In this document: positions 42,913 to 44,697 of the stretch, one piece after another | Position numbering within the stretch: position 1 is the first letter of the stretch | How the letters are laid out: each line of letters begins with the position of its first letter | NCBI RefSeq assembly: GCF_020099275.1 | Contig: NZ_CP083646.1 | Span: forward strand, 372,001 to 436,000 | DNA: 64,000 bases | Direction of reading: 5' to 3' | From: Corynebacterium falsenii | GTDB lineage: Bacteria > Actinomycetota > Actinomycetes > Mycobacteriales > Mycobacteriaceae | The notes under the pieces: model-generated | Seen by the model: only the letters and a program-made list of their open reading frames with translations | Databases searched by the model: none | What the model was told of the DNA's origin: nothing | Translations under genes and position numbers: made by a program

Positions 42913-44697
42913 ATGACTGAACCTGACTTCCCGCTTCGCGAACACTTCCCCGACATGTGGAACGCGATTGCCGCCGACTGGAAAGCTGCCCCTGAGGACA
43001 GCGATTACCCACACTTGAGCTCACGCCAGCGCAGCCTGCTGAGCAAGTTCACGGCCGTGGGCCTCATGGGAAGCATCGTGGTCTTCGAAGCCGATAGTGG
43101 TTACACCAAGCAGGAAGTCGAACGGAAGCTCTCCAGTGCCATCAAACAGGTGCTGAAATCCAAGCTCGGGATGGATGTCACCCTCGCGGTGAGCAGCCAC
43201 AACAATGCTCAGTCGCCGGCCGGGGGCCACGACGAACACGATGATGAGCACCACGCAGATCATCACGGTGATCACGCGGATCACGATGATCACACTCCAG
43301 ACAACGACGCGGACCACGGCGAGCACGATCAACACACCGAATCTAGCGACCCCCGTTCGCCACGCCCCACCGGCACCCCGGCGCACTTGGCATCTCCGTC
43401 CCACCGTCAGCCACACGGCCCATCCCAGGGTTCAGGATCTTTTTCGCAGGTCACTTCCGGTATCGACGCCGCTACGAACACCCCGGATCAGACTGGGCGA
43501 AGCGACAGTCACGCCGACCGATCTCCCCGCACGGCTGCGGATTTCAGCGACTCCGAAATGTCGGCTGTCCACCCGGGGGGAGCTGTGGGCGTCGGCGGAC
43601 AACGGCCACAACCCAGGCCGGGCGGGCGACAACCAGGATCGCCCAACCAGGCCAGCGAACTGGATGTTCCGCTCAACAAGGACTACACCTTCGATAACTT
43701 CGTGGTCGGTTCGTCCAATAACTTCGCCGCGGCCGCCTGCCGTGCCGTGGCGGAAGCCCCCGCGCGTTCCTATAACCCGCTGTTCATTTGGGGTGAGTCG
43801 GGGCTGGGCAAGACCCACCTGCTGCACTCGATCGGGCACTACGCGCGCCAGCTGTACCCGAACATGCGGGTGCGCTACATCAGCTCGGAGGAGCTGACCA
43901 ACGACTTCATTAACTCCATCGCCAACGACAGGCGCGAGGCCTTCAAGCGGAATTACCGCAACCTGGACATGCTCATCGTGGACGATATCCAGTTCCTCCA
44001 GGGCAAGGAATCCACGCAGGAGGAGTTCTTCCACACATTCAACGCGCTGCACCAAGCCAATAAGCAGATCGTGCTCAGCTCGGACCGCCACCCGCGGCAG
44101 CTCACCACCCTAGAGGATCGCCTGCGCACGCGCTTCGAAGGCGGCCTGATTACTGATATTCAGACTCCCGATCTGGAAACACGCATCGCCATCTTGACGA
44201 AGAAGGACGAGGCCGAGGGCGTCTACCTTCCGGAAGAGGTCAAGGAACTCATCGCCAGCCGCTACGAGAAGTCCATCCGCGAACTCGAGGGTGCACGCAT
44301 CCGCATCACGGCGCACTGTTCCATTAACAAGGAGCCGATTACCGCCGAGGTTGCGGAACGGGTCATGCGGGACATCCTGCCCGAGGACCAGGACGTGAAG
44401 ATCGTCCCGCAGCACGTCATCGACATCGTGGCCGAATACTTTAACCTCACCGAGGATGACCTGCTGGGCAAGAGCCGCTCCAAGCGGATCGCTCAGCCGC
44501 GCAAGATCGCCATGTACTTGTGCCGGGAACTCACGGATTTATCGCTGCCGAAGGTGGGGGAGTCGTTCGGCAACCGTGACCACACGACCGTGATGCATGC
44601 GGAACGCGGCATTCGCAAGGAGATGTCCTTGGACAAGAAGGTGCTCGATCAGGTGCAAACCTTGTCGCAAAAAATCAAGGTGTATGCCCGAGGCTGA
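42913..44697 (+). CDS. dnaA: Replication initiator DnaA with His/Asp-rich linker
   Basis: A 594-residue initiator ATPase. Domain I spans about 1-95 ([26 protein letters not shown]). Domain II is a long linker, about 96-250. Domain III has Walker A GESGLGKT at 294-301 and Walker [14 protein letters not shown]; domain IV ends with the DnaA-box HTH ([19 protein letters not shown]). Oddity: residues 106-141 of the linker contain 12 His and 12 Asp in 36 residues, in HxxH, HH and HxDH patterns like the metal-binding loops of zinc transporters. Linker length varies in actinobacteria but this composition is unusual. Start ATG 42913. Followed by oriC. Confidence 0.98.

Follow-up and report, generated by a model that had tools for sequence, protein, structure and literature searches.

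Domain II is described in PMC5448010 as the most diverse domain of DnaA in both sequence and length, and in E. coli it tolerates the insertion of GFP while some 21-27 residues of it are needed. In Streptomyces coelicolor, according to the same source, domain II carries a long, predominantly acidic stretch that is proposed to help DnaA reach distant DnaA boxes. Similarly, a 2026 account of the actinomycete domain I reports that the last 20 residues of the Rhodococcus hoagii construct are unresolved and takes them for flexible linker (PMC13270200). His/Asp-rich low-complexity regions are reported as enriched in Co/Ni-binding bacterial proteins, with 82 such regions in cobalamin-synthesis proteins that average 36 residues and contain 53 % His, 23 % Asp and 9 % Glu (PMC6821194). 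Corynebacterium falsenii DSM 44353 is a relative of C. jeikeium (PMC3945510). The stretch of DNA analysed here (the window, 64,000 nucleotides from C. falsenii) contains a dnaA gene whose product carries a dense His/Asp tract in its linker.

The dnaA gene, its linker and the neighbouring DnaA boxes

The features of the locus, in window coordinates, are the following.

42913..44697, plus strand: dnaA, replication initiator of 594 residues, with Pfam Bac_DnaA and Bac_DnaA_C
42913..43200, plus strand: domain I, folded (by pLDDT), residues 1-96, identical in the near-identical database protein P0001
43201..43662, plus strand: domain II linker, residues 97-250, predicted to be disordered (pLDDT below 50), with substitutions relative to P0001
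43228..43335, plus strand: His/Asp-rich tract, residues 106-141, 12 His, 12 Asp and 3 Glu in 36 residues
43258..43293, plus strand: imperfect tandem repeat of 9 bp (GATGATCAC, Asp-Asp-His) inside the tract, 4.0 copies, 77 % matches, score 44
44698..45235, no strand assigned: spacer downstream of dnaA with four perfect TTATCCACA boxes (three on the plus strand, one on the minus strand), from a box search

Both the AAA+ ATPase and the C-terminal helix-turn-helix expected of a DnaA initiator are present in the window DnaA, the former matching Bac_DnaA (PF00308) over residues 254-415 (E 6e-74) and the latter, the DNA-binding domain, matching Bac_DnaA_C (PF08299) over residues 500-565 (E 9e-31), each above the Pfam cut-off, and the protein is the single DnaA match in its own genome. 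The domain I part has no Pfam match above cut-off; in an AlphaFold2 model built on a 20-sequence alignment its blocks between residues 11 and 90 display pLDDT values of 85-91. In the same model residues 97-250 (154 residues) fall below a pLDDT of 50, with block means of 29-37 from residue 101, and the model is mostly confident after residue 250. The segment between domain I and the AAA+ domain is predicted to be disordered and is variable among relatives, as is characteristic of domain II.

The tract sits in the first third of this linker. The preliminary description of the locus had reported a His/Asp segment in the DnaA linker, and its residue counts and coordinates prove exact, the segment lying inside the predicted-disordered residues 97-250. 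The tract consists of 33 % His, 33 % Asp and 8 % Glu and contains neither Lys nor Arg, and longer direct repeats overlap its 9-bp tandem repeat.

DnaA boxes of the TTATNCACA type flank the gene, four upstream with starts at 42518-42653 and four downstream with starts at 44765-45104. This arrangement suggests a two-part origin, and the downstream spacer is probably part of oriC. The neighbourhood is that of a DnaA initiator, with clustered boxes beside dnaA and long open reading frames downstream that we take to be dnaN, recF and gyrB.

Rarity of the tract among DnaA proteins

The comparison of DnaA proteins started from 242 loci, of which 237 carry the AAA+ start motif and resolve into 214 distinct N-terminal parts, 136 from the genus (the window DnaA included) and 78 from a set drawn more widely, which includes at least one Corynebacterium (L033, C. 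tuberculostearicum). The five loci dropped because they have no such motif are L039, L104, L184, L227 and L242, the last of which is not a DnaA. The 136 genus proteins are the better matches of the genus searches, the remaining genus genomes being covered by a search with residues 1-256 alone. Among the 214 proteins the maximum number of His in any 36-residue segment before the AAA+ domain is 12 in the window DnaA and 8 in the next best protein, with medians of 3 in the genus set and 2 in the other set; these counts extend beyond the true start into upstream residues, a feature that can inflate the values of the compared proteins but not lower them. At least 8 His per 36 residues are found in two of the 213 other DnaA, one from the genus and one from Streptomyces, and none of the other 135 distinct genus DnaA has the His/Asp tract itself. 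Pooling the 150 residues that precede the AAA+ domain in these 135 proteins gives a His frequency of 4.2 %. A naive binomial with this genus linker composition, which ignores the low-complexity nature of linkers, gives a probability of 1.6e-8 per segment for at least 12 His in 36, or about 2.5e-4 over 115 segments in 136 proteins.

Among the 120 database DnaA listed, of 7999 scored, P0001 reaches 10 His per 36 residues and the next best protein 7, and, P0001 aside, the tract is absent from the other 119. A search with the tract alone through 5.8 billion proteins, covering proteins of approximately 330-1040 residues that share exact words with it, leaves P0001 as the sole match among 11 candidates. 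The search with residues 1-256 finds a match in 68 of the 242 genus genomes (own genome included), the best other one being G080 with 45 % identity, and a search of plasmid DNA gives no match. Within the window there are 51 open reading frames of at least 130 residues, mostly non-overlapping and possibly including non-genes, and the 50 others hold at most 6 His per 36. The tract is confirmed as a real outlier, restricted to one lineage among the sequences compared.

Two Streptomyces DnaA linkers (L070 and L049) carry His-containing repeats of their own, of an Asp-His-Arg type and a Gln/His type, and His-containing stretches thus arise sporadically in DnaA linkers. A second and weaker His/Asp match in the genome of the window DnaA (L242, 1528-2475, minus strand, E 0.16) lies at the C-terminal end of an open frame of 315 residues that, judged from its sequence, is hydrophobic and probably a membrane protein. 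Elsewhere in the window, at 24733-27600 on the plus strand, a 955-residue open frame has no Pfam match at E 0.001.

Variation and acidity of the linker

P0001 is one sequence of a 25-member cluster and the only close relative compared, as protein and not as DNA; it is identical to the window DnaA at 582 of 607 positions and presumably comes from the same species. The two proteins differ by a single 13-residue indel, which falls in the tract and is flanked by Asp-His units, and by 12 substitutions, 11 of which are in the linker. Residues 1-98 carry no substitution (0/98), nor does the stretch 1-105, residues 254-594 carry one (1/341), and only one of the 439 residues outside the linker is changed. 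Within the linker, four substitutions fall in the 36 residues of the tract and seven in the remaining 112 (Fisher p = 0.46), so the tract is as free to vary as the remaining linker. A His is lost in two of the four substitutions in the tract (His109 to Gln and His118 to Arg). The tract of P0001 extends over 49 residues with 13 His, 14 Asp, 4 Glu and 3 Arg, and the number of His is therefore similar despite the change in length (12 in 36 residues and 13 in 49). This similarity fits chance as well as an upkeep of His content; it is the chief argument that something is being maintained, which a single comparison cannot establish.

The comparison also bears on whether the tract is an artefact of sequencing, assembly or frame. 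The stretch is repetitive, which would favour an artefact, but the frame is open through the conserved domains and a related tract is present in P0001, a different and separately sequenced protein, so that this explanation is extremely improbable.

Of the 136 genus linkers, 25 carry in-frame tandem repeats with a score of at least 44, compared with none of 136 core stretches of equal length; in the other set the counts are 17 of 78 linkers versus 4 of 78 core stretches. At a score of 30 the counts for linker and core are 60 and 37 of 136 in the genus and 27 and 38 of 78 in the other set, and the excess of repeats in linkers is thus clear for the stronger repeats only. Strong bias towards one residue is frequent as well, with at least 12 of a single residue per 36 in 59 of the 136 genus linkers (own included). 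In the tract, changes in repeat length would probably proceed through the gain and loss of short in-frame repeats. Codon bias as a mark of recent duplication was considered and rejected: the Asp codons of the tract comprise eight GAT and four GAC, an excess that is not significant against the rest of dnaA (p = 0.10) or against the four open reading frames downstream (p = 0.24).

The net charge of the 150 residues preceding the AAA+ domain, computed without counting His, is -15 to -19 in all eight proteins formed by the window DnaA and its seven next best genus matches (L002-L008, with 60-64 % identity over the matched parts). These 150 residues hold 20 Asp, 6 Glu and 16 His in the window DnaA, compared with 11-14 Asp, 15-16 Glu and 4-8 His in L002-L008, and the acid of the window DnaA spacer would be supplied largely by the Asp codons of the His/Asp repeat. 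Over the genus the net charge has a median of -6 and a range of -19 to +1, with 12 of 136 distinct proteins at -15 or lower, four of them (L125, L134, L139 and L224) less close relatives; quantiles first taken with repeated loci kept were repeated on distinct sequences, which again gave a median of -6. The 25 closest database proteins among those listed have net charges of -10 to -21. For P0001 the value is -10 when the last 150 residues are counted and -16 when all 171 residues of its linker are; for P0002 and P0004-P0007 it is -11. Acidity is shared more widely than His among the nearest relatives, though it is not uniform. This lack of uniformity slightly lowers the confidence in an acidic spacer.

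The charge of -15 to -19 common to the window DnaA and its seven next best genus matches also favours another reading, in which the Asp/Glu/His run either mimics DNA within the molecule or serves to dock a partner, the helicase for example, and thereby hinders or promotes orisome assembly. In E. coli, domain II has been suggested to take part in recruiting the helicase (PMC5448010). However, no shared linker motif was seen in these relatives: L002, the best aligned, lacks the tract and has the charge and some dispersed residues in common, and the linkers of L003-L008 differ again, as judged by eye. An interaction segment of this kind is unlikely.

The tract is probably a lineage-specific version of the flexible, acidic domain II, driven by repeats, a dedicated metal sensor being less likely than a rapidly changing acidic spacer. 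Domain II would tether domain I to the AAA+ and DNA-binding part, and the tract would likely serve as an extended acidic spacer that repels DNA and is under little constraint in its exact sequence. The presence of DnaA boxes on both sides of the gene fits a long acidic tether, and these boxes together with the published properties of domain II favour an acidic flexible spacer. Such a spacer leaves unexplained why His separates Asp, at least 8 His per 36 residues being almost absent elsewhere. Should the tract be no more than an acidic spacer, it offers a clear natural example of an essential initiator in which domain II is freely remodelled between flanking domains that hardly change.

Metal binding and comparison with known systems

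To our knowledge, DnaA has no known metal function. A paper on the YabA regulator (PMC4705661) reportedly mentions zinc 22 times. The preliminary description considered the segment metal-binding-like, and this holds in so far as the tract belongs to domain II, is dense in His and Asp and resembles Co/Ni proteins in composition, whereas a functional tie to metal or pH is not supported. Because regions of this composition are enriched in Co/Ni-binding proteins, the purified linker may well bind such metals, and some binding of Zn, Ni or Co is likely on chemical grounds. Such binding by the His of the tract would probably be real chemistry but incidental. A DnaA with such a tract may bind nickel resin without a tag and may pick up trace metals during purification.

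A metal- or pH-responsive regulator would require more, namely that binding of Zn, Ni or Co, or protonation of His, compacts the linker and alters domain I-mediated assembly of DnaA at oriC. The His/Asp density of the tract, close to that reported for Co/Ni-related low-complexity regions (PMC6821194), its lack of Lys and Arg, and the nearly constant number of His across the length change in P0001 all speak for this regulator. In contrast, the tract is confined to one lineage among the sequences compared, and relative to P0001 it is conserved no better than the rest of the linker. The Nramp transporter that had been noted in the same region is indeed present (12199-13551) but lies approximately 30 kb from the tract. 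Literature titles on DnaA with zinc, metal or His-rich regions show no metal binding by the linker, although a limited search at the level of titles says little. Pfam matches to metal proteins are all below cut-off: in the window DnaA Zip gives E 5.1 (6.7 bits against a cut-off of 35.1) and ZrgA E 3 (8.2 bits against 27.4), so that the protein matches neither family profile, and in P0001 Zip gives E 0.55. With matches so far below cut-off, we reject the idea that the tract is homologous to known metal domains, and among solved structures there is no sequence match to the tract at E values up to 10. A regulator of this type is unlikely.

The preliminary description had also proposed that the segment ties initiation to metal status or protonation, and had set absence from close relatives and free variation within the species as the observations that would weigh against it. 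This is largely what is observed: the tract is absent from the 135 other genus DnaA, its length changes from 36 to 49 residues in P0001, and the positions and spacing of its His vary; the number of His, however, remains at 12 versus 13, and one relative was compared. Neither ligand residues nor their spacing are conserved among the orthologues (the 135 genus DnaA and P0001), as they would be in a metal-binding His domain, and with the tract found in one lineage the proposed tie to initiation is not upheld. A regulatory role finds little support beyond composition. It is very unlikely that the tract forms a lineage-specific metal- or proton-responsive tether, in which an otherwise strongly negative linker would become shorter and lose its charge on binding Zn, Ni or Co or on protonation of some twelve His, with a change in domain I-mediated assembly at an origin whose boxes lie on either side of dnaA. 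If metal binding mattered, metal status would be tied to initiation through DnaA's own linker, a connection that no title among those listed in the literature searches describes.

Elsewhere in the window, a 156-residue open frame at 7563-8033 on the minus strand starts with a short His-rich stretch and lies beside a FecCD-type transport gene (8026-9090); it has no Pfam match at E 0.001 and may not be a gene.

The tract resembles the His-rich stretches of ZIP zinc transporters and ZrgA zinc-uptake proteins in composition only; the window DnaA matches neither family above cut-off, and a transporter domain is not reported in it. The His/Asp regions described for cobalamin-synthesis proteins (PMC6821194) share with the tract a length of approximately 36 residues and a richness in His, Asp and Glu, but the DnaA tract has less His and more Asp (33/33 compared with 53/23 %). 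Relative to other DnaA linkers the tract is distinguished by 33 % His over 36 residues, the commonest residue being Pro, Ala or Gln in 120 of the 136 genus linkers. With the domain II linkers of actinobacterial DnaA, such as that of S. coelicolor, it shares protein, place, disorder, length, acidity and variability, and strong bias towards a single residue is common among them.
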